DNA of 64,000 nucleotides from positions 3,321,001 to 3,385,000 of the forward strand of contig NZ_OY782507.1 of NCBI RefSeq assembly GCF_963677725.1. The letters run 5' to 3'. A program made the translations under genes and the position numbers. Below the pieces are notes generated by a model, which did not search any database, was not told where the DNA came from, and was given only the letters and a program-made list of their open reading frames with translations. The DNA is from an uncultured Cohaesibacter sp. (GTDB lineage: Bacteria > Pseudomonadota > Alphaproteobacteria > Rhizobiales > Cohaesibacteraceae). Below are positions 48,123 to 64,000 of the stretch, piece by piece. How positions within the stretch are numbered: position 1 is the stretch's first letter; each line of letters begins with the position of its first letter.

Positions 48123-49203
48123 ACTGAAGGGGGTCACCAAGAATTTGGGCAAACTTGAAGTCATCAAGCCCCTTGATCTATCGATCCACGAGGGCGAGTT
48201 TCTGGTGCTGGTTGGACCGTCGGGATGTGGCAAATCGACCTTGCTGCGGATGATTTCAGGACTGGAAACCATTTCCAGCGGAGACCTTTTTATCGGGGGG
48301 CGGCGTGTCAATGATGTGTCGGCGCGCGATCGCGGCATTTCCATGGTGTTTCAGTCCTATGCGCTTTATCCGCATATGACGAGTGCCGAGAATATGAGCT
48401 TTTCACTGCGTCTGGCGGGACTGAGCGCGGACGATCAGGCAAAACAAATTGCCCCGGCAGCTAGTGTGCTAGGTCTTGATTCCTATCTGGACAGGCTTCC
48501 CAAAGAGCTGTCGGGTGGTCAGCGGCAAAGGGTGGCAATGGGACGCGCCATCGTGCGTGAACCGGATGTTTTCCTCTTCGATGAACCGCTCAGCAACCTT
48601 GACGCCAAGCTACGTGTCCGCATGCGTGCCGAACTCAAGGAATTGCACCAGAAGCTAAGCACGACAACCGTCTATGTGACCCATGATCAGATTGAGGCCA
48701 TGACGTTGGCAGACCGGATTGTCGTTCTCAGAGACGGAGAGATCGAACAGATAGGGGAGCCTTTGGAGCTCTATGATCATCCGGCCAATCGCTTTGTTGC
48801 ATCCTTTCTTGGCTCGCCGTCCATGAATTTCTTCGATTTACCGGTTGTGCAAGACGGTGGCTGTCGAGCCGTTTTTGAAGATGGGGATCGTCTGATGTTG
48901 CCCCAGTCCATCGCTGATATCGACACAATCACCGTGGGCATACGCCCCGAAGCCCTTCGGCTGGTTTCTGACGCCGAGGAAGGAAGTATCTCTGCACAGG
49001 TGGTGGTGGTCGAAGCGACAGGGGCCGAAACCGAGCTTGTGCTGCGCAAGGGAACGCATGAGCTTATCGTCAGTTTCCGCGATCGCATCAGCATTCGCCC
49101 CGGAGAGATCGTTCATCTCGCCACGGATCCAGACTCTTTCCATCTGTTCGACCCTCAAACAGGTGTCGCCTTGATCGGCAACAAATCTGGTGACGGCAGA
49201 TAA
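48109..49203 (+). CDS. Carbohydrate ABC transporter ATP-binding protein, MalK/UgpC-type
   Basis: A 364-residue protein. The ABC domain (about 1-235) has Walker A GPSGCGKST, Q-loop FQSYALYPHM, signature ELSGGQRQRVAMGRA and Walker B DVFLFDEPLSNLDAK. A C-terminal TOBE-type regulatory domain (about 240-364) follows. Its first bases overlap the end of the DUF4432 gene. It energises the importer of this operon. Confidence 0.94.
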   Translation: MATVELKGVTKNLGKLEVIKPLDLSIHEGEFLVLVGPSGCGKSTLLRMISGLETISSGDLFIGGRRVNDVSARDRGISMVFQSYALYPHMTSAENMSFSLRLAGLSADDQAKQIAPAASVLGLDSYLDRLPKELSGGQRQRVAMGRAIVREPDVFLFDEPLSNLDAKLRVRMRAELKELHQKLSTTTVYVTHDQIEAMTLADRIVVLRDGEIEQIGEPLELYDHPANRFVASFLGSPSMNFFDLPVVQDGGCRAVFEDGDRLMLPQSIADIDTITVGIRPEALRLVSDAEEGSISAQVVVVEATGAETELVLRKGTHELIVSFRDRISIRPGEIVHLATDPDSFHLFDPQTGVALIGNKSGDGR

Positions 49204-49240
49204 ACTGGAAAGAATTCCAGAGCAAAGGAGCGTGCGCTGC

Positions 49241-50571
49241 ATGAAGGCGATGAAGGATCAACCTTTTCAGGTGATGGCGAAACCCATCGGGCCGCGGTGC
49301 AACCTTGATTGCAAATATTGCTACTATCTGGAAAAGGAAAAACTGTATCCCGAAACAAAGAAATTCGAGATGCAGCCCGATGTGCTGGAGACCTATATCC
49401 GCGATTTCATCGCCTCGCAAGTTCGTCTCAAGGTGCCGGAAATCTGGTTCAACTGGCAGGGCGGTGAGCCGACCATTCTCGGGCTCGACTATTTCCGCCA
49501 GATCGTCGCGTTGCAAAAGCGCTATGCGCCGAAAGTGCAACGATCCGCAACGCGTTGCAAACCAACGGTATGTTGCTGGATGAGGAATGGGCCGTGTTCC
49601 TGAAAGAAAACGGATTTCTCGTCGGCATCAGCATCGATGGGCCGCAGGAGATCCATGATGCCTTTCGCTATGACAAGGCAGGGCGGGCCAGCTTCAAGAG
49701 CGTGATGCGCGGCTATGAGCTGCTCAAGACCCATGGGGTTGAGCACAATATTCTCACCGTGGTGCATCGGGAAAATGCAAAGCGCCCGCTCGAAGTCTAC
49801 CGATTCCTCAAGCAAATTGGGGCTGAGTTCATCCAGTTCATTCCCATTGTGGAGCGAAGTGCGGACGGCGAGACCCTTGCTGGCGCACCACAGATCGACG
49901 AGGACGGTGTGCAGTATGAGGTGACGCCGTGGAGCGTGTTGCCGCGCAGCTACGGCTCCTTTCTGAAAACCATCTTTGATGAATGGGTGACCCGTGATGT
50001 CGGCTCCGTCTTCGTCCAGTTTTTCGATATGCAGCTGGGGCTGTTCATGGGGAAGCCCGCGTCCCTCTGCGTCTTTGCCGAGACATGCGGGCAGGGGCTG
50101 GCGATGGAGCATAATGGCGATCTCTATGCCTGCGATCATTATGTCTATCCGCAGTTCAAGCTGGGCAACATCACCGAGACACCGGTTGATAGTCTTGCCA
50201 ATTCCTCTCTGCAAAAACAATTTGGCGATGCCAAACGGGACACGCTGACCGAACAGTGCCGAAGTTGCGAAATCCGTTTCGCCTGCAATGGTGGCTGCCC
50301 CAAACACCGATTCCTTACAACAAAAAGCGGCGAGTCCGGCCTCAACTATTTCTGCCGCTCAACCACCCTGTTTGTGAAACACGCACGGCCTTATTTAGAG
50401 ACCATGGTTAAACTGCTGGAAGCAGGGCGACCGGCAAGTGATATCATGCCCCTCATCAACAGTGGCAAGCTGCACGCAAGCAACAAAGTAAGACTCGCAA
50501 GCGCCCCAAGTCGCAATGCGCCCTGCCCATGTGGCAGTGGCCGCAAATTCAAGCATTGTTGCGGGGCTTGA
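49241..50571 (+). pseudogene. Anaerobic sulfatase-maturating enzyme (radical SAM), frameshifted
   Basis: The family is ~380-430 residues, but here two frames are needed. Frame one (49241-49603) has the radical SAM cluster C20-N-L-D-C24-K-Y-C27 and reads normally to ...RYAPK, then runs out of family sequence. Frame two resumes at about 49537 (ATIRNALQTNGMLLD) and continues to 50571 through SPASM-type Cys motifs (CRSCEIRFACNGGCPKHRF). At 49532-49537 the bases AAA-GT-GCA leave two bases where a codon is expected: one missing base. The C-terminus ends in the SEC-C zinc motif NAPCPCGSGRKFKHCCG. It should convert Cys49 of the sulfatase to formylglycine. It is either a pseudogene or a sequencing error. 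Confidence 0.88.
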
Positions 50572-50712: not shown

Positions 50713-51396
50713 TCAGGTGAACATGTAAGCGCCTATATAGGAGCCTTTCTGTGGGGCGGGAGGGGCGAAAAAGATCGCTGACCCTATGTGAGAAATATAT
50801 TCGTTGAGGCGGTCCAGTGATCCCAGTCGGCTCTGCATTGCTTCGAAAATGGCTGGGTCATTCTGATAGCTGACAAAGTGCAGCCCTGCATCCAGCATCC
50901 CGACCTGGTTGATATCGTCTGTATAATTGTAGGACCGGCGCAACAGCTTGAGGCCTCCCATATTTTCATGGGCGGCAAGGCTCATGTGTGAGGTTGCCGG
51001 TATGACCGTTTCGCCATTTTTCTTTACGGCCTCGAAATCGGGCTCGTCAAATTCATGTTCTCCAGAAAGAGGCGCGCCTGATACCTTGAACCGTCCAAAC
51101 ACGTCATTTTGGTCATCAACCCGGTCCGTGTCCCAGCTTTCGATAAACATGCGGATCTTGCGCGAGACCATATAGGAGCCGTTATGCTGCCAGTCCGGGC
51201 CATCCTTAATCCAGACAAAACGGTCATAGTCTTCCTGTGTGGTGATGTTGCGCGTGCCGTCCCGGAAGCCGAGCAGATTGCGCGGGGTCGTCTGGCCCGG
51301 CCCTGCGGATGCCCGGCCAAAGCCCATGATCGCCCAACGGGTGGAGGCCACACCGGCTGCCTTGGCGATGCGCGCCAGAATGCGAACGGCATGTTC
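50713..51396 (-). pseudogene. efeB: efeB remnant (3' part of a Dyp-type haem peroxidase)
   Basis: The frame reads EHAVRILARIAKAAG...TPRNLLGFRDGTRN, then ...KNGETVIPATSHMSLAAHENM..., and stops at 50713 after IGAYMFT. GFRDGT is the Dyp-peroxidase signature. The intact protein is ~430 residues; only the C-terminal ~225 are here, including the region that carries the proximal haem His (SHMSLAA). The N-terminal half is missing, and it is joined out of frame to an efeO fragment. It has no start codon of its own with a ribosome binding site. Confidence 0.82.
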
Positions 51397-51764
51397 TTGA
51401 GTAACTCGGCTGCATAGGCCTTGGTCTGATCCGTGACCTTGCTCGCCTCGAACAGATCCCGTTCGATGGCGTGGTAACCGTGCCAGCCAACGTCGGGGTC
51501 GATATTGGACGCACGCATATCGATCAGATAGTCGAGGTTGCCGTGATTGTCTGTCGCGTCAAAGCCTTCGAGCACGAAGCCGTCCACATCGGATTCGATC
51601 CGTTCATAGAATGGGCGCGCCAGCGGATAGTCGTGTTTGGCTTTCTCAAGATCGCCAGCATCGATATCGTCCTTGAGGCGGGAAACGGCAACAACCATGG
51701 CGTCGATCGTTTCATTGACATATTGGGCGTAACTTGCTTGCCCGGATGGCGTCTTGAGCTCGAT
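51390..51764 (-). pseudogene. efeO: efeO remnant (imelysin/M75 domain fragment)
   Basis: The frame reads QIELKTPSGQASYAQYVNET...KAKHDYPLARPFYERIES...GWHGYHAIERDLFE...AYAAELLKN, which is the N-terminal part of the EfeO M75 domain including its HxxE motif (HAIE). No signal peptide, cupredoxin domain or C-terminal half is present. At about 51390 it switches to the efeB frame. EfeUOB imports ferrous iron in bacteria, so this is a decayed iron-uptake operon. Confidence 0.78.
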
Positions 51765-51874
51765 TTGACAGCTAAACCTATTCTGTTTCACCCAAAAAAT
51801 ATGTAAAACGGCTGATATCAAGGTTGGCATAATGTGGGAATTTGTCGCACATATGCCCGAATACGGGAAATTGC

Positions 51875-51916
51875 GAATAGGAAAATGTGGGAAAATGTGT
51901 GCAAATGTGAGAATAG
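51875..51916. repeat. Three tandem decamers upstream of the DeoR gene
   Basis: GAAAATGTGG, GAAAATGTGT and GCAAATGTGA stand end to end at 51881-51910, flanked on each side by GAATAG (51875-51880 and 51911-51916). A further AATGTGGGAA lies at 51831-51840. A 10-base period places every repeat on the same face of the helix. It is a likely operator of the adjacent DeoR regulator, 27 bases before its start codon. Confidence 0.65.
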
Positions 51917-51942
51917 AGAGCGAACGGGCGGTATTCAACAAA

Positions 51943-52728
51943 ATGCTGAAAGCTGACAGACTCAAGGAAATCGAACGCCACTTGAAAGAAGACGGCAGTA
52001 TCGTCGTCTCAAAGCTCAGTGCGCAGTTTGCCGTCTCGGAAGAAACGATCCGTCGGGATCTGGACAGTTTGAGCAAAACGCTATCGTTCAGACGCGTGCA
52101 TGGTGGCGCCTATCTTGTGAAGGGATCTGACAAAGAAGTCCCAGCCACGTTGCGTGAGACATTCTTTACAGCAGAGAAGTGCCTTATCAGTCAGAAGGCT
52201 GTGGGGGACATTTCAAACGGCGACACAATCATGCTCGACAGCAGCACAACCGCGCTGTTTATCGCGCGTGAGCTGTTCAGACAGAAAAAGAACGTTCTTC
52301 TTATCACCAACTCCCAAAAGATCATTTCAGAAGTTCCCGAAACAGGTGATGTCGAGGCGATCTGCATTGGCGGACGCCTCAGAAAAGAAACATGGTCGTT
52401 TGTCGGACCGGCTGCGTTAGACGCGCTTCGCGGACTTGCCGCGGATATGGCATTTGTTAGCTGCACATCAATCCACCCGCAGTTTGCAATGACGGACAAT
52501 CACGAAGGAGAGGCTGCAATCCGCAGGCTCATGATCGAAAGATCCGGTCGTGCGACGCTCGTGATCGACCACACCAAATTCGAAAAACCTGCCACTCACA
52601 AAATCTGTGAGTTCGACGAGCTGGACGAGATCATTCTGGATTATTCCGTCTCGGAAGATCTGCTCGAACCAATTCGACAAACCGGGCTTGGACTGCACGT
52701 CTGTTCTGACGCCAAGCCGGAGGAATAA
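51943..52728 (+). CDS. DeoR/GlpR-family transcriptional regulator
   Basis: A 261-residue protein. The N-terminal helix-turn-helix (MLKADRLKEIERHLKE..., then SEETIRRDLDSLSK at about 34-47) is typical of DeoR repressors; the C-terminal domain (about 75-235) has DSSTTALFIARELF with a sugar-phosphate-binding Thr/Ser cluster and the late DHTKFEKPA signature. The start is placed by the standard family N-terminus; no strong ribosome binding site precedes it. It begins the DHAP-shunt-like operon; the alcohol dehydrogenase gene follows after 36 bases. Its ligand is probably a phosphorylated intermediate of the pathway. Confidence 0.88.
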   Translation: MLKADRLKEIERHLKEDGSIVVSKLSAQFAVSEETIRRDLDSLSKTLSFRRVHGGAYLVKGSDKEVPATLRETFFTAEKCLISQKAVGDISNGDTIMLDSSTTALFIARELFRQKKNVLLITNSQKIISEVPETGDVEAICIGGRLRKETWSFVGPAALDALRGLAADMAFVSCTSIHPQFAMTDNHEGEAAIRRLMIERSGRATLVIDHTKFEKPATHKICEFDELDEIILDYSVSEDLLEPIRQTGLGLHVCSDAKPEE

Positions 52729-52764
52729 GCCGCTCAACACGTAACTGAGAAATCGAGAAATGCG

Positions 52765-53931
52765 ATGGAAGACTTCAATTTTTGCAGTAGAACTAAAATA
52801 ATTTTTGGCAAAGGAAAAGAGAATGAAGTCGGCCTTCAGGTAAAGCCATTCGCGGATAAAGTTCTGCTTCATTATGGTGGCGATTATCTGGAAAAGAATG
52901 GGATTCTTGATCGCATTGTTGGTTCGCTGAAAGCAAGCGGTGTTGAGCCTGTCCTGTTTGACGGTGTGGTTCCCAATCCAAGATTGTCTGTTGTGAAGGA
53001 AGGCATCGACCTTTGCCGCAAGGAGCATATTGGCTTCATTCTCGCAATTGGTGGCGGCAGTGCCATTGATTCTTCCAAGGCCATCGCACTAGGCGTGCCA
53101 TATGACGGGGATGTCTGGGACTTCTATACCGGAAAGGCTGAGCCTGAAACGGCTCTGAAAGTCGGGACTATTCTAACCATTCCGGGTTCTGGCTCGGAAA
53201 TGTCGGAAAGCAGCATCATCACCAATGAGGCTGATGACACCAAATATGGTATCGACAATCCCTTGATCGTGCCTGAATTCTCGATCCTCAATCCCGAAAT
53301 GTGTTTCACCATTCCGCCATTCTTCATGGCCAGCGGGCTTGCTGATATTCTCTCGCATCAGTTCGAGCGTTATTTCACGCCAACAAAATTCTGTCTGTTC
53401 AGTGACCATCTCCTTGAAGGGGCGATGCAGGCGGTTATCGCCCTTGCGCCAAAGATCCTTGAAGCGCCGCAAAATTACGATTATTGCGCTGAATTCATGT
53501 GGCTGGCCACAATCTCGCACAATGGGGTTCTGGATGCTGGTCGACAGTCCGATTGGGCTTCGCACCGGATAGAACACGAGATTAGTGCCCTTTACGATAT
53601 CACGCATGGAGCGGGGATGGCGATCATCTTCCCTGCATGGATGAAGCATGTGAAGTCCACCGATCTGGATCGCTTTGCGCGCCTTGGTGCTCGTGTATTC
53701 GGCATTGATCCAAACGGTCGGAGCAAGGACGAAATCGCTGATTTGACCATCCAGGCCGTTGCAGATTTCTTTGCTTCGCTAAAACTGAAGATCTCGTTGG
53801 CGGAAGCACAGGTGCCGACGGACCGATTTGATGAAATGGCGTCCAAGGCATTGGGCCGCAGCGATACGATCGGCCGTTTCAGGAAGCTCTCTCACGACGA
53901 CATTGTCGCGATACTCAAGCTGGCCGTCTAG
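52765..53931 (+). CDS. Iron-containing (group III) alcohol dehydrogenase
   Basis: A 388-residue protein. NAD(P) loop GGGSAIDSSKAIAL at about 94-107 is the family signature, and metal-ligand residues Asp/His occur in SHQFERYF and DITHGAGMAIIFP (the HG..GxGH-type motif). The fold matches butanol dehydrogenase-type enzymes. In this operon it could reduce the aldehyde released by the class II aldolase (acetaldehyde or methylthioacetaldehyde) to an alcohol. It is the first enzyme gene after the DeoR regulator. Confidence 0.9.
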   Translation: MEDFNFCSRTKIIFGKGKENEVGLQVKPFADKVLLHYGGDYLEKNGILDRIVGSLKASGVEPVLFDGVVPNPRLSVVKEGIDLCRKEHIGFILAIGGGSAIDSSKAIALGVPYDGDVWDFYTGKAEPETALKVGTILTIPGSGSEMSESSIITNEADDTKYGIDNPLIVPEFSILNPEMCFTIPPFFMASGLADILSHQFERYFTPTKFCLFSDHLLEGAMQAVIALAPKILEAPQNYDYCAEFMWLATISHNGVLDAGRQSDWASHRIEHEISALYDITHGAGMAIIFPAWMKHVKSTDLDRFARLGARVFGIDPNGRSKDEIADLTIQAVADFFASLKLKISLAEAQVPTDRFDEMASKALGRSDTIGRFRKLSHDDIVAILKLAV

Positions 53932-54103
53932 GCGCCAGACTTGCACATCTCTCTGACACTTTAGCGTTTAGAACCGCTGAAAGGCAGGCCAGAATCTCCA
54001 GTGACTTCAATCCGATCTCAAAAATAAACCAATAACCATGCGCGCTTTGCCGGGAAGACAGATGTGCGTGGTGACCCAAATAGACGTGTCTTGGGAGGAA
54101 ATC

Positions 54104-55417
54104 ATGACACAAAAATCCAATGCCAAGGGGCTGCTGCCTCTGCTGTTTTTCTTGGTAATCTACATCTTTACCGGCATTGCCACCGGCAACTTTGGCGCGA
54201 TGCCTTTGTTGGTTGGGTTCATGGCTGCATTCGGTGTGGCTCTTTGTCTGGACCGACTGGGCGAAAAAACCAGTTTTGACGACAAAGTCATGCTGTTCTC
54301 AAGGGCGGGGGGCGAGGAAACCATCATTCTGATGGTCGTCATTTTCCTGCTGGCGGGCGCATTCTACTCTGTTGCCGATGCCATGGGCGCGGTGAGTTCA
54401 ATCGTCAATCTTGGCTTGTCGGCCATGCCAAGCAATATGATCTTGCCAGGCCTGTTTCTGATCGGCTGTGTGTTGTCTTTCTCTATGGGAACATCCATGG
54501 GAACGGTGACGGCGCTGGCTCCGATCGGCGTGGGGATTGTGGAGCAGACAGGTGCCAATATGCCGCTGGTCATGGCTACCGTTATCGGTGGGGCCATGTT
54601 TGGTGACAACCTGTCCTTTATCTCTGACACGACCATTGCGGCCGTGAGAACGCAGGACGTAAGCCTGCGTGACAAGTTCAAGATGAATGGTCTTATCATT
54701 CTGCCCGCTGTGATCTGTACTGTTATCATTCTGGCAATGATTCCAATATCTTCAGACGTATCTGTTGAATCCGGATCTTACAGCCTCGTCAACATCATCC
54801 CCTATGCAGCCATCATCATCACTGCTTTGATCGGATGGAATGTCATGGCTGTGCTCGGGGTCGGTATCGGACTGGGTGTCTTGGTCGGTCTGTTCAATGG
54901 CAGTTTCAATCTGGTTGAAATGCTCGGTGTTCTTCAGCGCGGCATGGGCTGGATGGAAAATCTGGCGATCATCGCCATCGTCGTTGGTGGCCTCGTTGGG
55001 CTGATGAAATATTACGGCGGGATCGATTACCTTTTGAAAACGGTAACGAGCATGGTCAAAGGCAAGATCGGCGGTCAGTTCGGCATCGGTGCTCTGGTGT
55101 CATTGATCACGGTTTCCACGACCAACAACACGATTTCTATTCTGGCTGCGGGTCCTTTGGCAAAGGATATCTCTGCTGAATATGATATCGATCCAACGAA
55201 AACGGCTGCATTGCTTGATATTTTTGCGGCAGGCTTCCAGGGGCTGTTGCCTTATGGCGGGCAATTGCTTCTGGCTGCAGGCCTGGCGAAGATTTCACCG
55301 GTCGAGATCATGCCTTACGGCATCTATCAGATTTTGATGATCGTCTTTGCAAGCCTTGCAATTTTCCTTGGCAACTCGGCATCCAAAAACAAGCCGACAC
55401 CGGCTGCTGAAGCCTAG
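54104..55417 (+). CDS. NhaC-family Na+/H+ antiporter-type transporter
   Basis: A 437-residue protein with 11 or so hydrophobic helices. The family shape is shown by FGAMPLLVGFMAAFGVALCL near the start, MGTSMGTVTALAPIGVGIVEQ around 126-146, and GDNLSFISDTTIAAVRTQ around 167-184, the NhaC ion-binding region. NhaC proteins exchange Na+ for H+, and some relatives exchange other cations or organic solutes. GGGAGGA lies 6 bases before the ATG chosen. In this operon it may import the substrate of the DHAP-shunt enzymes, or simply handle ions. Confidence 0.85.
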   Translation: MTQKSNAKGLLPLLFFLVIYIFTGIATGNFGAMPLLVGFMAAFGVALCLDRLGEKTSFDDKVMLFSRAGGEETIILMVVIFLLAGAFYSVADAMGAVSSIVNLGLSAMPSNMILPGLFLIGCVLSFSMGTSMGTVTALAPIGVGIVEQTGANMPLVMATVIGGAMFGDNLSFISDTTIAAVRTQDVSLRDKFKMNGLIILPAVICTVIILAMIPISSDVSVESGSYSLVNIIPYAAIIITALIGWNVMAVLGVGIGLGVLVGLFNGSFNLVEMLGVLQRGMGWMENLAIIAIVVGGLVGLMKYYGGIDYLLKTVTSMVKGKIGGQFGIGALVSLITVSTTNNTISILAAGPLAKDISAEYDIDPTKTAALLDIFAAGFQGLLPYGGQLLLAAGLAKISPVEIMPYGIYQILMIVFASLAIFLGNSASKNKPTPAAEA

Positions 55418-55439
55418 AGGACAGAAGGTCCCAAGAAAA

Positions 55440-55477
55440 AAGGGCGCGGCTTTTAGACTTCTAACCCCCGCGTCCTT
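55440..55477 (+). promoter_or_regulatory. Hairpin between the NhaC-type and MtnA-like genes
   Basis: AAGGGCGCGG (55440-55449) pairs with CCGCGTCCTT (55468-55477), one G-U pair. No T-run follows. It lies 22 bases after the transporter stop and may separate or attenuate the two halves of the operon. Confidence 0.4.
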
Positions 55478-55545
55478 CCCCGCCTAAAGGATTTCAAATC
55501 CCGCAATTTGCGTGATCATTTCAAGTTTGCAGAAAGGAGTTCGTC

Positions 55546-56598
55546 TTGGAACGACAAGATAAAGACCTCGGTTTCCTTTTGCGTTTTGAAAATGTTGCAT
55601 GGTACGAAAACGGATCCGTCCGTATTCTGGACCGGCGCGTTTATCCCAGAAAAATCGAATTTGTCGAATGCGTTAGGCACGAAGACGTTGCCCAGGCGAT
55701 TGCCGACATGGTGACCCAAAGCGCGGGACCCTACACCGCAGCCAGCATGGGGATGGCCCTTGCCTGTCACGAGGTTCGTGACAAGCCACAAGCCGAGCAA
55801 CTAAACCACCTGAAAAAGGCGGCCTACACGCTCTCCCATGCGCGCCCAACCACCGTCAATCGGATGACGCTCATAACGCAAGGGTGTCTCGCCGTTGCCA
55901 GAACAGCCTTGGAAGGGGGCAGGGCGGCAGATCAGGCCATACTCGACCATACGATTGATTCAATGAACCGGCGCTATGCCAAGATCAGTCAGGTGGCTGA
56001 ATATCTGGTTTCTCTGTGGCCTCAGAATGCGACAGTCATGACCCAATGCTATGGCGAAACAATCGTCGGCACGATGCTGCGCGAGGCCCGCAACAAGGCC
56101 AAGACTGTCAAACTCTTCTGCCCTGAAACCCGTCCTTTTCTTCAAGGGGCGCGGCTGACTGCAAGCGTTGCAAATGATCAGGGGTTCGATGTGACGGTGA
56201 TCACCGACAACATGCCAGCCACGGTCATGGCCACCAAGGGCATTGATGTGTTCACATCCGCCGCCGACAGCATTTGCAGAGACGGCCATATCGTCAACAA
56301 GGTTGGCACGCTGCAGATTGCCATCGTCGCCCATCATTTCGGCGTTCCTTATTATGTCACCGGCATTCCTGACAAAGAACTGCCCACCATAAATGATGTC
56401 CGAATAGAAGAGCGCGACCCGATTGAGGCCCTGAGTTTTAATGGCGTCAAGAATACGGCTGAAGGCGTGAAGGGCTTTTATCCAGCCTTTGATGTGACGC
56501 CGTCAGGGCTGGTCAGTGCAGTTATCACGGACAGGGGACCATTCGCTCCTCAGGATCTGAACCGCTACTTCAGCCTTTCCGACACCGCTTACTGGTAA
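55546..56598 (+). CDS. mtnA: MtnA-like methylthioribose-1-phosphate / deoxyribose-1-phosphate isomerase
   Basis: A 350-residue protein of the eIF2B-alpha/MtnA family. The catalytic pair is visible as Cys168 in VMTQCYGETI and Asp241 in TSAADSICRDG, corresponding to the family THC and GADRI motifs. CPETRPFLQGARLTA and ITDNMPATVM are also family blocks. It interconverts a ribose-1-phosphate and ribulose-1-phosphate (methylthioribose, or 5-deoxyribose in DHAP-shunt homologues). Starts at TTG with AGGAG six bases upstream. The MtnK-like gene follows after 42 bases, so they act in sequence. Confidence 0.9.
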   Translation: MERQDKDLGFLLRFENVAWYENGSVRILDRRVYPRKIEFVECVRHEDVAQAIADMVTQSAGPYTAASMGMALACHEVRDKPQAEQLNHLKKAAYTLSHARPTTVNRMTLITQGCLAVARTALEGGRAADQAILDHTIDSMNRRYAKISQVAEYLVSLWPQNATVMTQCYGETIVGTMLREARNKAKTVKLFCPETRPFLQGARLTASVANDQGFDVTVITDNMPATVMATKGIDVFTSAADSICRDGHIVNKVGTLQIAIVAHHFGVPYYVTGIPDKELPTINDVRIEERDPIEALSFNGVKNTAEGVKGFYPAFDVTPSGLVSAVITDRGPFAPQDLNRYFSLSDTAYW

Positions 56599-56640
56599 TC
56601 ACATTTCTCGCAAGCTCATCTTTGAAAAGAAGAAGACGCA

Positions 56641-57855
56641 ATGACCAAGTTCGAAACCCATTTCAAAATGACCGACGCCGACGCCATAGACTATGTCCGG
56701 ACGCAGTTGGCCTATTTTGATGATGATGCGCAGCTCACCTCCAGCATGATTGCTGATGGCAATATCAATTATGTTTTTCGTGTCGTTGACGAGAAGAGCG
56801 GCAAGTCCCTCGTACTCAAACATGCCGACGTGTTGCTGCGTTCATCCGGGCGCCCGCTGGATGTCTCCAGAAGCCGGATTGAAGCACAGATTCTCGACAT
56901 TCAGTCGGTATTGGCTCCTGACTTCGTGCCGCGGGTTTTGAAATATGACGAGACCATGTGTGTTCTGGTCATGGAAGATATCTCGGCGTTCAAAAATCTG
57001 CGCTATGAGCTGCTCCAGCGGATTACCTTTCCGCATCTGGCCGAAAATATTACCACGTTCATGGTGGATACAATGGTGCCAACCACGGATCTGGTGATGA
57101 ATTCGGGCGAGAAGAAACGCCTCGCCGCAAAGTTTGTGAATGTGGATCTGTGCGATATCTCTGAGGATCTTGTCTTCACCGAGCCATATATTGATTACAA
57201 AGGCCGCAATGTCATTTCCGTTGGCAACGAGCAGTTTGTTCAAGAACATCTTTATCACGATGAAAGCCTGCTCCTGGAAGTTGCCAAATTGAAGAACAAT
57301 TTCAAGAACAACGCGCAAGCTCTCATTCATGGCGATCTTCATTCCGGTTCGATTTTCTGCAATCAGCAGGGCACCAAGGTCATTGATCCCGAGTTCGCAT
57401 TCTTTGGCCCCATTGGATACGACTTGGGCAATGTGTTGGCGCATCTGGTATTTGCTTGGGCGAATGCAGAAGCAACCGAGGATGATCAGGCCGTGCGCCA
57501 GAAATTTGGCGCTTGGTCTTCCCAGACGATCACTGACATCATCACCCTCTTCACTGACAAGTTTATGGCTTCGCTCGAGAAGAATGTGGTGGAACCAACA
57601 GCCCGCTCGTCTGCCTTCAGGGAGTGGTACACGGCGTCTGTTCTTGGCGATGCTGCCGCGAGCATGGGTATGGAGATCATCAGGCGCGTGGTGGGTGACA
57701 CCAAGGTCCTCGACCTCACCTCGATTGCGGACGGTGAGACCCGCCTTGCCGTCGAACGTTCACTGATACAGATCGGCAAAGATCTGATCCTGCAAAAGAA
57801 TTTGTCACAAGCTACCGAGCTCTGCCGTGAGCAGTTGGTAAACTTGCGGGCTTGA
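56641..57855 (+). CDS. mtnK: S-methyl-5-thioribose kinase-type enzyme (MtnK)
   Basis: A 404-residue APH-fold kinase. The glycine loop and Lys lie at about 40-60 (ADGNINYVFRVVDEKSGKS). HGDLHSGSIF near residue 230 is the catalytic loop, and IDPEFAFFGPIGYDLG near 247 is the MtnK metal loop. It phosphorylates the 1-OH of a 5-substituted ribose (methylthioribose; 5-deoxyribose also fits the shunt). It supplies the MtnA-like isomerase encoded just upstream. Confidence 0.9.
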   Translation: MTKFETHFKMTDADAIDYVRTQLAYFDDDAQLTSSMIADGNINYVFRVVDEKSGKSLVLKHADVLLRSSGRPLDVSRSRIEAQILDIQSVLAPDFVPRVLKYDETMCVLVMEDISAFKNLRYELLQRITFPHLAENITTFMVDTMVPTTDLVMNSGEKKRLAAKFVNVDLCDISEDLVFTEPYIDYKGRNVISVGNEQFVQEHLYHDESLLLEVAKLKNNFKNNAQALIHGDLHSGSIFCNQQGTKVIDPEFAFFGPIGYDLGNVLAHLVFAWANAEATEDDQAVRQKFGAWSSQTITDIITLFTDKFMASLEKNVVEPTARSSAFREWYTASVLGDAAASMGMEIIRRVVGDTKVLDLTSIADGETRLAVERSLIQIGKDLILQKNLSQATELCREQLVNLRA

Positions 57856-57933
57856 GGCGGCCTGTCATGGGCTGGTTCTTTCAGCCCGGAGAGCTTCAAT
57901 AGCTGCATGCTTGTGTTTTAGGGAAAGATGAAA

Positions 57934-58968
57934 ATGAAACGCGTGTTACTGGTTTGTGAGTTGGAAGAAACTGAGAAAGAGTATCTTTCCAAAAACTACG
58001 ATCTGCTGATGGCAGGGGCGGCGACGGGAGAATGCGACGAGCTGACCGAGGCTGCTCTTGCTGCGTTGATGGCCTCTCACCAACCCCACATCTTGCTGGT
58101 GAATTCATCTCCGGCAACAGCAAAGGTGCTGGCTGCGTCAGACTGTCTTGAACTGGTCATTTGCGCGCGCGGAACCCCCAACAATGTGGATCTGGACTAT
58201 TGCAAAGACAAGGGATTGCTCCTTTGTAATACGCCTTCCAGAAACGCCAATTCAGTTGCTGAATTCACGATCGGCCTGATGATGGCAGCAACGAGGCAGA
58301 TCCCGCAGTCTATGGAAGCGATCAGGGATCACAGGATCGTGCTTGAGGGAGATCCTCTTGAAGGGGGCAGCAAGGATGTCACTTGGATCCACTCGGATCT
58401 GCCCTTCATTCCCTATGAGCGTTACAATTCTCTGGAGATCGCCGGGGCAACGCTGGGACTTGTCGGGCTTGGATTTATCGGTGGCCTTGTGGCTGAAAAG
58501 GCCAAGGCCCTTGGTATGGAAATACTGGTCTATGACCCGTATCAGAACAAGGAAGCCTTGGCATCAAAAGGCTACAGGCTCGTTGAGTTTGAAGAGCTTA
58601 TCAAAGCCTCTGATGTGATCAGCCTGCATGCAAAGGAAACCGAGCAGACCCGGAATATCATCGATGCCGAAGCCTTCAATATGATGAAACCCTCGGCCTA
58701 CCTGATTAATACAGCTCGCGGGTCACTGGTCAATTATGATGATCTGATGCAGGCGCTCAAAAGCGGCCAGATTGCAGGCGCTGCAGTTGATGTCTTTCCG
58801 TATGAGCCGCTGCGGTCCAATGATCCGCTGATCAATACCCCGAACCTCACAATGACCCCGCACATTGCAGGTGCCAGCCGCAATGTGGTTCAGCACCATA
58901 CGCGTATGGTCATGCGCTCAATCCGCGAGTTCGAAAATGGTGATAAGCCGAAGTTCGCGGTCTTCTGA
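57934..58968 (+). CDS. D-isomer-specific 2-hydroxyacid dehydrogenase (PGDH-like)
   Basis: A 344-residue protein with the GLVGLGFIGG NAD loop at about 175-184 and the catalytic triad Arg (NTARGSLVN), Glu (DVFPYEPLRSND) and His (MTPHIAGASRN). Family members reduce 2-keto acids or oxidise D-2-hydroxy acids, including 3-phosphoglycerate. Two in-frame ATGs lie 6 bases apart; the second is nearer the proper spacing from AGGGA. The enzyme has no assigned step in the DHAP shunt, so it may act on an aldehyde-derived acid or a different branch. Confidence 0.87.
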   Translation: MKRVLLVCELEETEKEYLSKNYDLLMAGAATGECDELTEAALAALMASHQPHILLVNSSPATAKVLAASDCLELVICARGTPNNVDLDYCKDKGLLLCNTPSRNANSVAEFTIGLMMAATRQIPQSMEAIRDHRIVLEGDPLEGGSKDVTWIHSDLPFIPYERYNSLEIAGATLGLVGLGFIGGLVAEKAKALGMEILVYDPYQNKEALASKGYRLVEFEELIKASDVISLHAKETEQTRNIIDAEAFNMMKPSAYLINTARGSLVNYDDLMQALKSGQIAGAAVDVFPYEPLRSNDPLINTPNLTMTPHIAGASRNVVQHHTRMVMRSIREFENGDKPKFAVF

Positions 58969-59027
58969 GAGATTGAGAGCTGCAGGGGTCGGTAAACAAA
59001 GACAACGAGAATGACTTGGTCAGGACA

Positions 59028-60596
59028 ATGAAAACAGATTTGGTACTTGGACTGGATGTTGGCACGACAAACGTCAAAGCCCTGCTTGTTTCCGATCATG
59101 GTGAAGTGCTCAGGGTCGCGTCCCGGCGCAACCCAGAGGAGGATCGTGTTCCGGGCCATTCGGAAACCGACATGGTCGGTCTTTTCGAACGCTGTTGCGA
59201 GGTTCTTGTTGAGGTTGTTGCCGATGTTGACGCTTCGCGGATATGTGCGATTGGTGTGAATGGCCAAGGCGAAGGCCTCTGGGCACTGGGTGAAGACAAA
59301 AAGCCCGTCGGGCCCGCCATCCAATGGAATGACGCCAGAGCCAATGAAACTGCGCGCGAATGGAGCGCCGATGAAACCATACTCAAGGCCTTTCGAGCGG
59401 CGACAGGCAGCGTGCCCTTTAGCGGTGCGACCACTGTCATTCTTGCCTGGCTGAAACAGCATGAAGCCGAAACCTACAATAAAATCAGACATATATTCTG
59501 GTGCAAAGACTGGGTGCGGTTCTGCCTCTGTGGTGAGATTTTGAGTGACTATACAGACGCGTCAACGTCAACGCTGGATCTGGACAAGCGCGATTGGGCC
59601 GTTGACCTGTTTGACCAGCTTGGTATCAGAGAGGTCGCCAACTGGTTGCCTGATCTGAAGGAAAGCTATGAATGCGGCGGTTATCTTCTGCCGGAAGTGG
59701 CTGAACGAACCGGTCTTCCTGCCGGATTGCCGATAGCGGTTGGCGCTCTTGATGTTGTCGGGACCGCCATTGGCATGGGGGCACAATCGGAGGGCGATAG
59801 CTGCGTTATCCTTGGAACGACCTGTTGTTGTGAGACGGTGAGTAGCTCGGCGGATATTGAACAAGGCTCCACAGGTGGTGTCGAGTGTTTTGCAATCGGG
59901 CAAAAATATATCAAGGTTACAGCGTCCATGGCTGGCGCTCCAAGTTTGGACTGGGCCATCAAAACGCTGCTGAGCGCTGAGGAGCAGAACAGCAAAGACC
60001 TGTTCGAAAAGATTGATCAATGCGTCAATGCTCTGCCGCCAGTGCCGGAAGGCATCATCTTTCATCCCTATATCAGCGAGGCAGGAGAGCGGGCGCCCTT
60101 TAATAACCCCGGTGCGAAAGCTCAGTTTTTCGGGCTGAACCAGAATGCTGACAAGTGGTGCATGCTCAAGGCTGTCTATGAAGGGGTTGCCTTCTCGATA
60201 CTGGATTGTATCGGCGACTTGAAGGGGCGCCTGCTTTTGTCGGGAGGGGGCGCGCGATCAGGCGTATGGCCGCAAATTATCGCGGATTGCACCGGCCTTC
60301 CCGTTTTGACCTTCGATGAAGCGGAGAGTTGTGCAAAGGGGGCTGCCTTCTTTGCCTGCAAATGCGCTCACCCCGACTTGTCGTTGGATGCCATTGCTGG
60401 CCGGTTTGAATGCTCCAACCAGACGTATCAGCCAAAAGCAAACGCCCACTGGATCTACGAGGCTCACTTTCCGTTCTATAGGGGAATCCGTGAGCAGCTC
60501 GACGGTATATGGCGGCAACACCAGCAATATCAGCACAAACTGAGGGCTGAGAAGCAAACAGCTGCGAGCGAACAAGTCTCGTTACCGCTTAATTGA
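59028..60596 (+). CDS. FGGY-family carbohydrate kinase
   Basis: A 522-residue kinase. The N-terminal ATPase phosphate loop is DVGTTNVKALL, the family segment IGVNGQGEGLWALGEDKKP lies near residue 85, and WNDARANETAREW follows. The C-terminal domain has GGGARSGVWPQIIADCTGLP. The family phosphorylates pentuloses, polyols and related sugars; it resembles the L-xylulose/AI-2 kinase type more than glycerol kinase, but the sugar cannot be assigned. Its start is an ATG with a weak AGGA; an upstream TTG is possible. It precedes the aldolase gene by 50 bases. Confidence 0.87.
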   Translation: MKTDLVLGLDVGTTNVKALLVSDHGEVLRVASRRNPEEDRVPGHSETDMVGLFERCCEVLVEVVADVDASRICAIGVNGQGEGLWALGEDKKPVGPAIQWNDARANETAREWSADETILKAFRAATGSVPFSGATTVILAWLKQHEAETYNKIRHIFWCKDWVRFCLCGEILSDYTDASTSTLDLDKRDWAVDLFDQLGIREVANWLPDLKESYECGGYLLPEVAERTGLPAGLPIAVGALDVVGTAIGMGAQSEGDSCVILGTTCCCETVSSSADIEQGSTGGVECFAIGQKYIKVTASMAGAPSLDWAIKTLLSAEEQNSKDLFEKIDQCVNALPPVPEGIIFHPYISEAGERAPFNNPGAKAQFFGLNQNADKWCMLKAVYEGVAFSILDCIGDLKGRLLLSGGGARSGVWPQIIADCTGLPVLTFDEAESCAKGAAFFACKCAHPDLSLDAIAGRFECSNQTYQPKANAHWIYEAHFPFYRGIREQLDGIWRQHQQYQHKLRAEKQTAASEQVSLPLN

Positions 60597-60646
60597 AATC
60601 TCAAATTGTTGCGACCAGAGAAGCAGGCAATAGACAAGGAAATACA

Positions 60647-61276
60647 ATGAATTACAACAGCTGTAAAACTGAACGAGAGTGCGTTGCCTACTTCATGCGG
60701 CGTCTTTATCAGAACCAATTGACGACATGTTCGGGTGGCAACCTGAGTATGCGGCTCGATGAAAAACATGTGATCATCACGCCGTCCAGTTTGGATAAAG
60801 GGGTGATCGAAGCCGGTGAAATCGGGCTTGTGACCATTGATGGGGAAAATCTGACCCCGCATCTCAAGACGAGCATTGAAACGGGAATGCATCTGGAAAT
60901 CTTTCGCCGTCGTCCAGACGTCAAAGCCATTGTGCATGCCCACCCAGTAATGGCATCGACCTTTACGGCGGTCGATATGGATATCAATACGACACTCACC
61001 GCAGAATCCTATTTGGTCTTGGGCAATGTTGTGAATGCCCCATACGCACTGATGGGTTCAAAAGAGCTTTCGTTGATCGTTGGCGAAGCCGCTGAGAAGA
61101 GCAATGTTATCGTCATGAAAAATCATGGCATTACCACCATCGGCAAGTCCATGCTTGACGCTTTTGACAAAATGGAATTGTTGGAAGCTTCCGCCAAAAT
61201 GACCATCAATGCCGCGATTCTTGGTGGAGTAAGCCCACTGACTGCTGAGCAGCGAGCCGAGCTTGATAACTGGTAG
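60647..61276 (+). CDS. Class II fuculose-1-phosphate-type aldolase
   Basis: A 209-residue zinc aldolase. Phosphate-binding CSGGNLS lies at 28-34, catalytic Glu78 is in SIETGMH, and Zn ligands are His97 and His99 in VHAHP and His160 in MKNHG. It cleaves a ketose-1-phosphate to DHAP plus an aldehyde. With the MtnK-like and MtnA-like enzymes of this operon it completes the core of a DHAP shunt. AAGGA lies 6 bases before the ATG chosen; upstream frame belongs to the previous gene. Confidence 0.92.
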   Translation: MNYNSCKTERECVAYFMRRLYQNQLTTCSGGNLSMRLDEKHVIITPSSLDKGVIEAGEIGLVTIDGENLTPHLKTSIETGMHLEIFRRRPDVKAIVHAHPVMASTFTAVDMDINTTLTAESYLVLGNVVNAPYALMGSKELSLIVGEAAEKSNVIVMKNHGITTIGKSMLDAFDKMELLEASAKMTINAAILGGVSPLTAEQRAELDNW

Positions 61277-61422: not shown

Positions 61423-62556
61423 TTAACGATCAAGTATCGTTTCACCCACCTCATCAAGCCCACGTAGGCCAACAAGACCAAGATCCTGATGCAACTCCTT
61501 TTTCAGGATTTTGATCGCCTGTTCAACCATCGACTGACCACCAACAGCTGCTGCATACAGCATAGGCCGTCCCACAAAGACGAAATCAGCGCCAAGCGCC
61601 ACAGCTTTCAAGATATCGGTACCACGGCGAATGCCGCCATCCACACCGATTATCATTTCACCCGCTTCCTGTCGCGCGGCCTGCAACGCGCGCACGCCGC
61701 TGATGGCGAAATCGAGTTGCCGCCCGCCATGATTGGACAGGATCACGCCATCGCAACCATGTGCGCGGGCACGCGCCACATCCGTATGCGCAAGCAGGCC
61801 TTTCAAGACCAGCTTTCCTTTCCAGATATCGCGGATCAGGCGCACATGCTCCCAATTCAGATGATCTTTACGACCAAAATCACGGACCACATTTTTGGAG
61901 ACGATCGGCACCCCGCGTTCGGCAAAGGAATTCTCGAAATGCGGCATCCCACGCTCTACGAGACTTCTTAGAAAGGTTCCGAAAACCCATCTTGGTTTGA
62001 GCGCAAAATCGAAGATCAAACGCGGCGTAATCCTCAGCGGCGTTGAAAAACCGGCGCGCAGATTATTCTCGCGGTTCGCTAGAACCGCTGTGTCGGCGGT
62101 CAAAACGAGTGTTTTGTAACCTGCCCGTTCAACGCGCTGTACCAACGCACGAATACGGTCTTCCTCGCCTGGCAAATAGGCTTGAAACCAGGCATCTGGA
62201 TTGCTTTCCAGCACACGCTCCAAAGGGGTGAGCGAGGAGCCGCTCAAAATAAACGGTATGCCAGCGTCTTTCGCAGCACGTGCCAGCACGACATCACCAT
62301 CCAATGCCATGAGCGAAGAAATGCCCATGGGTGCAATGCCGAATGGAGCATCATATAGTTTATCGAAAAGGGGACGCGTGATTGTGCGGCCTTCTACGCC
62401 GCGCAAAACATTGGGGATCAGTCGCATTTCAGAGAAAATAGCGCGGTTATCCGCATAGGCAGAAGAGGTTTCCGCAGCGCCCGCAATATATCCAAAGAGC
62501 GGGCGCGGAAGCCTCCGACGTGCAGCGATTTCGAAGTCATCCAGATTCAAAATCAT
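61423..62556 (-). CDS. FMN-dependent alpha-hydroxy-acid oxidase/dehydrogenase (LldD-like)
   Basis: A 377-residue TIM-barrel flavoprotein. Typical features are FGIAPMGISSLM near residue 70, catalytic His in ILSNHGGRQLD at about 278, and VDGGIRRGTDILKAVALGADFVFVGRP at about 304 (quoted as IRRGTDILKAVALGADF). It oxidises an L-2-hydroxy acid such as lactate, glycolate or mandelate, passing electrons to oxygen or quinone. It follows the amidohydrolase gene by 12 bases on the same strand, with a second tctA upstream, so it may oxidise the imported acid. Confidence 0.9.
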   Translation of the reverse strand: MILNLDDFEIAARRRLPRPLFGYIAGAAETSSAYADNRAIFSEMRLIPNVLRGVEGRTITRPLFDKLYDAPFGIAPMGISSLMALDGDVVLARAAKDAGIPFILSGSSLTPLERVLESNPDAWFQAYLPGEEDRIRALVQRVERAGYKTLVLTADTAVLANRENNLRAGFSTPLRITPRLIFDFALKPRWVFGTFLRSLVERGMPHFENSFAERGVPIVSKNVVRDFGRKDHLNWEHVRLIRDIWKGKLVLKGLLAHTDVARARAHGCDGVILSNHGGRQLDFAISGVRALQAARQEAGEMIIGVDGGIRRGTDILKAVALGADFVFVGRPMLYAAAVGGQSMVEQAIKILKKELHQDLGLVGLRGLDEVGETILDR

Positions 62557-62568
62557 ACCGTCGGCTCC

Positions 62569-63372
62569 CTAGAAACTATAGAGTTTTTCAGCATTTTTCC
62601 ATGTGCAGGCAAGATATTGCTCGCTAGACAGAACCCTTTCCAGCAGCTTCAGCATCGGTGGGATTTGTGGAAGCGGTGGTTTCGTCATCACATGCGGCCA
62701 GTCGCTGCCCCAAATGCACTGATCCGGATAGCCTTGTGCAATCTCCGCTACCAAAGCGTCCAGATCGTCATATTGTCCGATCTGACGGCTGACACGGGTG
62801 GGAGAAAGTTTGACCCAGACGCGGCCCGTATCCATCAGACGGCGCAACTTGTGCAGGTCCTCCGGCACGTCAGGGTCGACATGGGCAATATGGTCCAGCA
62901 CCAGTGAAACCTCTTTGGGAAGCTTCGGCATCAGAGACGCTATGTCGTCGAAACTGCGTGGCTCGGTGTTCAGCTCGATGTGCCAGCCGACGCTAGCGGC
63001 GACTTCGCCAAGAGCGGGCAATGTGTGAAGATCACTGTCACCCAACCGTGCTCGGTCCTGAATTCTGATGGCCCTCACTCCGGCTGCATGCAGTGCTTTG
63101 AGGTCAGCGGTTTCCGGGTTGATGGCCGCTACACCGCGCAGAGAGAGCTCCTCTGACTGTGAGAGCGTTTCAACAAGCCGGGAATTGTCGGTTCCATCGA
63201 TGGACGCCTGAATGATAACCGCGCGCTTGATGCCGAACGGTGCCACTTCCTGAGCATAATCCGCAATGTCCATGAGCGGGGGCGCATAGGCTCCGCTGGT
63301 CTTGGCAGGCCGTTTGGAAAAGGAATGGATGTGGCAATCGCAAATCATGTCGGAATTGGAACGATTAGCCAT
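62569..63372 (-). CDS. Amidohydrolase-family TIM-barrel hydrolase (LigI-like)
   Basis: A 267-residue protein with an HxH pair, CDCHIHSF near residue 10, and late WGSDWPHVM, plus LNTEPRSF and VLDHIAHVD that carry the other metal ligands. The pattern is that of the COG3618/LigI group, which opens lactones such as 2-pyrone-4,6-dicarboxylate. It starts with ATG overlapping the tctA stop (8 bp). In context it should act on the acid brought in by the tctA-type transporter. Confidence 0.85.
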   Translation of the reverse strand: MANRSNSDMICDCHIHSFSKRPAKTSGAYAPPLMDIADYAQEVAPFGIKRAVIIQASIDGTDNSRLVETLSQSEELSLRGVAAINPETADLKALHAAGVRAIRIQDRARLGDSDLHTLPALGEVAASVGWHIELNTEPRSFDDIASLMPKLPKEVSLVLDHIAHVDPDVPEDLHKLRRLMDTGRVWVKLSPTRVSRQIGQYDDLDALVAEIAQGYPDQCIWGSDWPHVMTKPPLPQIPPMLKLLERVLSSEQYLACTWKNAEKLYSF

Positions 63373-64000
63373 CGCGACCGGACCTCTTTTTTCTGTAATA
63401 CACAAAGATACTGGTTGCGACCGAAATCACAATCAGTGCCAGCAAAATGATCGTTATGGGGGACCCTGCAAAAATCCCGAACTTTCCGCCGCTTGTCAGC
63501 AAGGCCTGACGCACGCTTTGCTCAAAGGGATGCCCGAGAATGAGACCGATGAGCAGTGGCGGAAGCGGAAAGCCGCTGCGTCGGAAGAGAAAGCCGAAAA
63601 AGCCGGCGCCCAACATGACCCAAACATCAAACAGGTTGTTGTTCACCGAGAAAGCGCCAAACAATGCCAGAATAGAAATTGCTGGCAGCAGGTGCCGTGG
63701 CTGAATGCGCGTTACATGAATGGCCGCACGGAAAAGAAGAAGGCCAAGGATAACGGTCGGTATGGAGGAGAATAACAGCGCTTCAAAAATGGCGTAAACT
63801 TCAAGCCCGTTCTTTTCAAATAGAAACGGACCGGGCGCCAAACCATGCAGCATGAATGCACCAAGGATGACTGCCGTGACCGCGTCGCCGGGAATGCCAA
63901 GCGCCAGTGTGGGGACCAGTGCACCACCTGTCACTGCATTGTTGGCAGCCTCGGGTGCGGCGATGCCTTCAACGGCGCCCTTGCCGAAGGTTTCCGGCTC
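63365..64000 (-). CDS. tctA: TctA large subunit of a second tripartite tricarboxylate transporter (partial)
   Basis: The C-terminal 212 residues are visible and the gene runs off the right edge. It opens EPETFGKGAVEGIAAPEAAN, which is the family loop, then NAVTGGALVPTLALGIPG. About five or six membrane helices follow. It ends in RKKRSGRDG. It is a different protein from the TctA of the first cluster. The amidohydrolase gene overlaps its stop, and the hydroxy-acid oxidase follows, giving a small-acid uptake and catabolism operon. Confidence 0.9.
   Translation of the reverse strand, partial: EPETFGKGAVEGIAAPEAANNAVTGGALVPTLALGIPGDAVTAVILGAFMLHGLAPGPFLFEKNGLEVYAIFEALLFSSIPTVILGLLLFRAAIHVTRIQPRHLLPAISILALFGAFSVNNNLFDVWVMLGAGFFGFLFRRSGFPLPPLLIGLILGHPFEQSVRQALLTSGGKFGIFAGSPITIILLALIVISVATSIFVYYRKKRSGRDG

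Follow-up and report, generated by a model that had tools for sequence, protein, structure and literature searches.

Which sugars might be degraded by a run of eight plus-strand genes in an uncultured Cohaesibacter species, and by what route? The run spans positions 51943-61276 of a 64,000-nucleotide stretch of contig NZ_OY782507.1 (hereafter the window) and encodes, in order, a DeoR-family regulator, an iron-containing alcohol dehydrogenase (Fe-ADH), an NhaC-family transporter, an MtnA-like isomerase, an MtnK-like kinase, a D-isomer-specific 2-hydroxyacid dehydrogenase (HADH), an FGGY-family kinase and a class II aldolase, separated by 36, 106, 128, 42, 72, 47 and -4 bases. Modified riboses are a waste of S-adenosylmethionine chemistry: many organisms make 5'-deoxyadenosine and methylthioadenosine (MTA), whose sugar parts are excreted or toxic, and the dihydroxyacetone phosphate (DHAP) shunt turns such sugars into a central metabolite. 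An earlier reading of this DNA (the original prediction) proposed a DHAP-shunt operon for 5-deoxyribose or 5-methylthioribose (MTR) from five of the genes, those for DeoR, Fe-ADH, isomerase, kinase and aldolase. All five are full-length open reading frames (ORFs) of this single plus-strand run, and their best family E-values are well beyond chance, ranging between 8e-42 for the aldolase (Pfam) and 8e-111 for the kinase (NCBIfam); the list was incomplete in omitting the transporter, HADH and FGGY kinase. We somewhat favor the view that the run is an inducible operon that would catabolize imported 5-substituted pentoses in the manner of a DHAP shunt. The operon looks like a DHAP-shunt variant in its logic and in two of the three core enzymes.

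Kinase and isomerase

The kinase passes the cut-off of the S-methyl-5-thioribose kinase equivalog TIGR01767 (371 bits, cut-off 275), bearing out its description as MtnK-like, and retains DPEF and, at residues 230-239, the quoted motif HGDLHSGSIF. The isomerase passes the cut-off of the subfamily PRK05720 (343 bits, cut-off 271) and has the predicted Cys168 and Asp241, in agreement with an MtnA-like assignment at the level of the subfamily and not, as discussed below, at that of the equivalog.

In maximum-likelihood (ML) trees the same eight rows form one clade for the kinase (41 rows, support 100/100) and for the isomerase (66 rows, 100/99), where Pseudorhodobacter and Polaromonas (a fragment) are sisters. 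Copies of the window (L001, L037, L088), the plasmid copy from Escherichia coli (L071) and short hits, with under 200 aligned residues or, for the aldolase, under 150, were removed beforehand, and several long branches and uneven composition were flagged among the rows. Both clades include homologues from Pseudovibrio, Fusobacterium, Enterococcus raffinosus, Acetoanaerobium and Lactobacillus intestinalis; the DHAP-shunt kinase and isomerase of E. coli fall outside them, as do the Bacillus references and the second MtnA encoded by the host. Grouping of the two enzymes with unrelated sugar enzymes, named in the original prediction as grounds for abandoning it, was not observed, because the homologues with which they cluster are encoded close to FucA/DrdA-like aldolases.

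The isomerase clade has rewritten motifs: the VRGAP(A/L)IG of the other rows shown becomes TQSAGP(Y/F), TxCN(A/T)G becomes T(Q/H)C(Y/F)(G/A)E, and G(A/T)DR becomes AADS or, in two rows, AADT or AADV. VRGAP probably has a part in phosphate binding. Despite these changes, the catalytic Cys and Asp are retained.

Distribution across lineages

The eight genes occur in identical order in two other genomes of the genus Cohaesibacter, with proteins 71-97% identical and with the kinase, isomerase and aldolase genes clustered and co-oriented as in the window. Kinase matches below 1e-200 were found in 3 of 18 genomes of the genus, and HADH matches below 1e-60 in 3 of 20 genomes of the family; the FGGY match in genome G355 has one TGA reported inside it, and its open frame still spans 514 aligned residues. 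After these, full-length kinase matches reach no more than 37% identity among 397 genomes of the order, and the best isomerase besides the window's own among 398 genomes of the phylum is 36% identical (in a match list without the two congeners). The isomerase relatives of Pseudorhodobacter and Polaromonas are 41-43% identical, and their stretches contain no Fe-ADH, NhaC, FGGY or HADH match at 1e-6; that of Polaromonas has one class II aldolase-family match.

Whole-genome searches covered the window's phylum; beyond it we used plasmid records (72,556, a biased sample) and scanned the genome collection once with a short pattern. Gene content was assessed from tblastn matches at 1e-4, from ORFs and from family scans. 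An uncultured Pseudovibrio (kinase 61% identical) encodes DeoR, Fe-ADH, a different aldolase, NhaC, the isomerase and the kinase, followed by a minus-strand ORF near the contig end, with no HADH or FGGY in the 12.8 kb stretch examined. The best plasmid matches to the kinase (43-48%) are from Fusobacterium vincentii, two E. raffinosus records, Acetoanaerobium noterae and L. intestinalis, and the same records give the best isomerase matches (48-64%). The three top-ranked plasmid records for the transporter are from Fusobacterium and Enterococcus (55-56%), whose loci also hold the kinase and isomerase. In the Fusobacterium locus, which also encodes Fe-ADH, NhaC, the isomerase and the kinase, the aldolase gene lies on the opposite strand about 4 kb before the isomerase. 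All eight gene classes stand in one cluster of an unannotated E. raffinosus megaplasmid record (L068, 3224-12256), in the order DeoR (divergent), NhaC, HADH, FGGY, aldolase, Fe-ADH, kinase and isomerase, which has HADH-FGGY-aldolase in common with the window. In Acetoanaerobium and L. intestinalis, the 10 kb to each side yielded only the kinase, isomerase and aldolase.

With the window's genus taken as one lineage, the lineages with the kinase/isomerase pair have a class II aldolase in 6/6, Fe-ADH and NhaC in 4/6, and HADH and FGGY in 2/6, the small number of six lineages being the basis of these counts. As a control, 27 loci of distant kinases (L008-L034) gave no Fe-ADH, NhaC, HADH or FGGY match at 1e-8 in flanks of only about 1.5 kb.

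Two further observations concern Fusobacterium. F. vincentii L067 carries at 1-2598 a second NhaC-family gene, about 1.6 kb from the FucA/DrdA-like aldolase, beside an ORF that is presumably a methionine gamma-lyase. A possible MTA-isoprenoid shunt was raised for F. nucleatum in 2024, with a request for further study (PMC10878106; this and the other papers are cited from excerpts); the F. vincentii locus would offer a DHAP shunt.

The aldolase and other points against a DHAP shunt

The metal ligands and glutamate predicted for the aldolase (Glu78, His97, His99 and His160, numbered from 60647) are present and invariant in a 15-sequence alignment, and the asparagine in GGN and the tyrosine that follows AES are retained as well. 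These residues agree with a class II aldolase; a DHAP-shunt type is not confirmed, and here lie most of the observations that weigh against our preferred reading. The window aldolase scores 101.5 bits against the DrdA-type model PRK06833 (cut-off 264), which the aldolases of the Pseudovibrio, Fusobacterium and E. raffinosus loci pass with 276-356 bits, and because of this difference the aldolase step is the least secure of the proposed route. SIE replaces SSE, TPSS replaces TPSG, and the C-terminus lacks the FxxY tail of FucA-like enzymes, the tail tyrosine being gone. FucA Y209 and R212, which we take to sit in this tail, have no counterpart in the window aldolase. Structure titles name T26, N29, S71, E73, Y113, Y209 and R212 as E. 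coli FucA residues probed by mutation.

A 35-row ML tree does not settle the place of the window aldolase: the aldolases of Pseudovibrio, Fusobacterium, E. raffinosus, Acetoanaerobium and L. intestinalis group with DrdA and FucA (88/89), the window and its two congeners stand beside MtnB in the best tree (92/48, not starred), and a constraint joining them with the DrdA-like aldolases gave an approximately unbiased test value (p-AU) of 0.222. Among the remaining points against, the isomerase falls under the cut-off of the equivalog TIGR00512 (205 bits, cut-off 279) and has neither VRGAP nor GADR, the HADH fits no evident step of the route, and Fe-ADH and NhaC had no match within 10 kb in Acetoanaerobium or L. 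intestinalis. Taken as a whole, the DHAP-shunt prediction is supported in part, by the kinase, the isomerase subfamily and the trees; the aldolase type and the isomerase equivalog do not support it, and it left the transporter, HADH and FGGY kinase unaccounted for.

A predicted structure of the aldolase, made from a 6-row alignment (predicted local distance difference test score, pLDDT, 86), has its top TM-score with DrdA 6btd (0.86/0.88, root-mean-square deviation 2.1), with FucA and YgbL close behind; ordered by Foldseek E-value, a FucA and YgbL come ahead and DrdA third. Sequence identity is about 27% to DrdA and 33% to the Pseudovibrio aldolase. We considered three assignments. That of a simple DrdA/Ald2 orthologue is not upheld by the model score, motifs or tree, the p-AU leaving a joint clade unrejected. 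MtnB is rejected by TIGR03328 (84 bits, cut-off 137) and by lower similarity (the match to Klebsiella MtnB scores 56 bits and that to the Pseudovibrio aldolase 101), and L-fuculose-phosphate aldolase fails on TIGR01086 (60 bits, cut-off 400).

Source of the sugar

The original prediction noted no nucleosidase or phosphorylase gene at the locus and placed the origin of the free sugar elsewhere or outside. None of the three PNP_UDP_1 genes of the host genome, which encode a purine nucleoside phosphorylase, an MTA phosphorylase (MtnP; PRK08931, 518 bits, cut-off 437) and an AMP nucleosidase, lies in the window. No MTA nucleosidase (MtnN) was found in the genome, where a remote one could have escaped detection, and this strengthens the case for an outside origin: the free sugar for the kinase probably comes from outside the cell. 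The MTA phosphorylase would give a sugar 1-phosphate directly, so that a free sugar is not the expected product of the host's MTA route and a free-sugar kinase would make sense for an imported sugar.

The genome also has a canonical MtnA outside the operon (3836637-3837650, 427 bits, cut-off 279). An acireductone dioxygenase (PF03079) and a RuBisCO-like gene (PF00016) had no match in the host genome; in the control set, PF03079 matched 5/14 genomes (2 over the cut-off) and PF00016 likewise 5/14. Universal methionine salvage was rejected for this genome by the missing dioxygenase match and the lack of MtnB in the operon, and an MTA-isoprenoid shunt by the missing RuBisCO-like match.

FGGY kinase and HADH

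The FGGY kinase fails the cut-offs for L-fuculokinase (TIGR02628, 105 bits, cut-off 471) and rhamnulokinase (41 bits, cut-off 528). In Klebsiella, Sinorhizobium meliloti and Streptomyces, an FGGY-HADH pair is next to a gene of the class II aldolase family, and the three genes lie within about 12 kb in Halomarina; the window proteins are 31-37% identical to these FGGY and HADH copies. In Klebsiella the aldolase-family neighbor is a true MtnB (PRK09220, 333 bits, cut-off 226). On Klebsiella plasmid L103 (18489-21631), MtnB, FGGY kinase and HADH genes are consecutive, about 9 kb from mtnK/mtnA, and we found no role for this FGGY kinase and HADH in the open-access literature. Orthology of the window pair to that of E. 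raffinosus was not upheld (HADH 26% identical, no mutual FGGY match at 1e-3; the Enterococcus FGGY scores 48.5 bits against congener L035), and the two lineages may therefore have recruited the pair independently.

Proposed pathway and alternatives

In the pathway that we propose from gene families and linkage, the NhaC-family protein would import 5-deoxyribose, MTR or a close analogue, which the MtnK-like kinase would convert to the sugar 1-phosphate and the MtnA-like isomerase, with its catalytic Cys and Asp, to the ketose 1-phosphate. The class II aldolase would then release DHAP and acetaldehyde or methylthioacetaldehyde. Reduction of the aldehyde to an alcohol by Fe-ADH, as originally predicted, fits the closest solved structures, which are butanol dehydrogenases, and the linkage of Fe-ADH to the kinase/isomerase pair in 4/6 lineages. 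L-fuculokinase and L-rhamnulokinase, both FGGY kinases, phosphorylate ketoses at O1. The FGGY kinase and HADH would be accessory, most likely as a second entry at which a free ketose is phosphorylated at O1 in this way, so that one aldolase would serve both branches.

The most obvious competitor keeps the chemistry and changes the substrate, to a pentose with a different, larger or charged 5-substituent or to an unsubstituted one, such as ribose or an S-ribosyl compound. The kinase and isomerase do form a specificity clade of their own, with the isomerase motifs rewritten, and excerpts on the published E. coli cluster name no FGGY kinase, HADH or NhaC-family transporter (the neighboring transporter there is annotated as GRP family). 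The NhaC family also includes the methionine transporter MetT (PMC3228920). We nonetheless consider another substrate unlikely: the kinase passes the MTR kinase cut-off, and Bacillus thuringiensis DrdK, a different enzyme, accepted 5-deoxyribose and MTR and not ribose (PMC6079011). Alternatively, two pathways could share one promoter, with HADH-FGGY-aldolase as a separate cassette that acts on a ketose or sugar acid. In this genus the kinase/isomerase branch would have lost the aldolase it once had, and would now either share that of the cassette or end elsewhere. In favor of this, the three cassette genes are neighbors in Sinorhizobium, Streptomyces, Klebsiella and, more loosely, Halomarina without this kinase/isomerase clade alongside, Pseudovibrio retains a DrdA-like aldolase without the pair in its 12.8 kb stretch, and the window aldolase is of another type. 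E. raffinosus, however, combines the HADH-FGGY pair with a DrdA-like aldolase and the kinase and isomerase; the co-occurrence is therefore not peculiar to one genus, and we regard two pathways as quite improbable.

A role in methionine (sulfur) salvage rather than carbon catabolism is suggested by the names of the kinase and isomerase, by the position of the window aldolases beside MtnB and by the consecutive MtnB, FGGY and HADH genes of Klebsiella; with neither acireductone dioxygenase nor RuBisCO-like gene found in the genome, and an aldolase under the MtnB cut-off, we think it very improbable indeed. A fuller version of the DHAP-shunt reading would make the operon a cross-phylum variant whose kinase and isomerase form a separate clade: a dedicated Fe-ADH would fill the alcohol dehydrogenase step left open in 2018, the NhaC-family protein would transport 5-deoxy- or 5-methylthio-pentoses, and the FGGY kinase and HADH would admit 5-substituted ketoses, acids or alditols through a second entry converging on the same aldolase. 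We offer this combination tentatively, as it is rather doubtful that all of it holds. An operon dedicated to taking up and degrading these sugars, present in alphaproteobacteria and recurring wholly or partly in Enterococcus and Fusobacterium, would mean that such waste serves bacteria as food; candidates would be named for two missing parts, the transporter and the alcohol dehydrogenase; and the FGGY/2-hydroxyacid dehydrogenase pair that recurs across bacteria and one haloarchaeon would gain a function.

Regulation, coordinates and neighboring genes

DeoR may regulate the operon by binding AATGTGNGAA repeats. The window holds 4 exact matches in its 64 kb, 3 of them within 83 bases before DeoR, compared with a mean of 0.8 and a maximum of 5 per 64 kb in 200 Markov shuffles, none of which placed 3 within 100 bp. 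With 1 mismatch permitted there is no excess in the window (14 found, 20 expected), which counts against an operator. Exact copies upstream of DeoR number 3 in congener L035, 1 in congener L036 and 0 in Pseudovibrio L002. Scans for promoters and terminators gave no useful signal (11 promoter-like sites, 7.2 expected; 21 terminator-like sites, 11.4 expected, none at the end of the run).

Features of the candidate operon, in window coordinates
Feature	Coordinates	Strand	Evidence and remarks
Candidate operator	51831..51913	+	AATGTGNGAA exact at 51831, 51884, 51904; one-mismatch copy at 51894
DeoR-family transcriptional regulator	51943..52728	+	HTH_DeoR 9.9e-14, DeoRC 2.5e-42; alternative ORF start 51832
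Fe-ADH, butanol dehydrogenase/YqhD type	52765..53931	+	Fe-ADH 1.9e-44; best PDB 6l1k, E 5.6e-118
NhaC-family transporter	54038..55417	+	PF03553 1.4e-18; likelier start 54104, conserved part begins near there
MtnA-like ketose-1-phosphate isomerase, divergent clade	55546..56598	+	Cys168, Asp241; TQSAGPY replaces VRGAP
MtnK-like 5-methylthioribose/5-deoxyribose-type kinase	56641..57855	+	TIGR01767 371 bits, cut-off 275; MTR kinase 2olc E 3.1e-64; tree
D-isomer-specific 2-hydroxyacid dehydrogenase (HADH)	57928..58968	+	Best profile PGDH 209 bits, under its cut-off of 454
FGGY-family carbohydrate kinase, XylB-like	59016..60596	+	Under every listed NCBIfam cut-off; XylB 295, cut-off 380
Class II aldolase/adducin-family enzyme	60593..61276	+	Likely start 60647, AAGGAA before it; PF00596 8e-42

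Downstream, convergent minus-strand genes at 61423-64000 encode an FMN-dependent alpha-hydroxyacid dehydrogenase, an amidohydrolase and TctA, probably a separate organic-acid operon. Beside the operon start, on the minus strand at 50713-52076, Dyp-peroxidase-like and imelysin-like pieces (presumably EfeB-like and EfeO-like, respectively) overlap in different frames and look like a degraded iron-uptake remnant. On the plus strand at 49190-50571, a radical SAM/SPASM/SEC-C protein is split across two overlapping frames near 49.55-49.60 kb; the split is a frameshift or sequencing error.

Comparison with known systems

Among the papers listed from the open-access literature, we found none with a title, abstract or excerpt describing the eight-gene set. 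The trio of kinase, isomerase and aldolase is experimentally established in E. coli (PMC10986504) and in B. thuringiensis, where DrdK, DrdI and DrdA convert 5-deoxyribose to DHAP (PMC6079011). In E. coli, mtnK-mtnA-ald2-permease is needed for growth on 5-deoxyribose, with MtnR as the DeoR-family regulator (PMC10986504, PMC12632272). A preprint on corrinoid gene clusters names MtnK, MtnA and Ald2 in a figure legend (PMC10418091). A plasmid-borne copy of the E. coli cluster was matched in 1,224 of 5,426 E. coli genomes (at least 80% coverage in 1,068), and window positions 54038-57855 had no blastn match in these genomes at 1e-5.

L-fucose and L-rhamnose catabolism have a similar logic of FGGY kinase, class II aldolase and Fe-ADH, in which a ketose 1-phosphate yields DHAP and lactaldehyde; unlike them, the window has an FGGY kinase under both corresponding cut-offs and no fucose or rhamnose isomerase among its eight genes. 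The DHAP-ethylene and DHAP-methanethiol shunts of Rhodospirillum and Rhodopseudomonas begin with MTA phosphorylase rather than a kinase. There too an alcohol dehydrogenase is assumed to reduce the aldehyde, an enzyme described for R. palustris in 2018 as putative and not known (PMC5893883), most genomes having many candidates according to a review (PMC6302742); the window operon, in contrast, holds a specific Fe-ADH. The B. thuringiensis drdK-drdI-drdA cluster lacks the window's extra genes, and its aldolase differs from the window's, which misses PRK06833, has no tail and is about 27% identical; the same three enzyme classes are nevertheless present, and DrdA is the top TM-score match of the aldolase model. 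Relative to the E. coli DHAP shunt, the window kinase and isomerase belong to other clades (kinase about 31% identical), the transporter is of the NhaC family rather than the GRP family annotated there, Fe-ADH, HADH and FGGY are added, and no MTA nucleosidase was found in the genome to supply the free sugar. With that system the operon nonetheless shares an MTR/5-deoxyribose-type kinase, an MtnA-like isomerase, a class II aldolase, a transporter and DeoR-family control.

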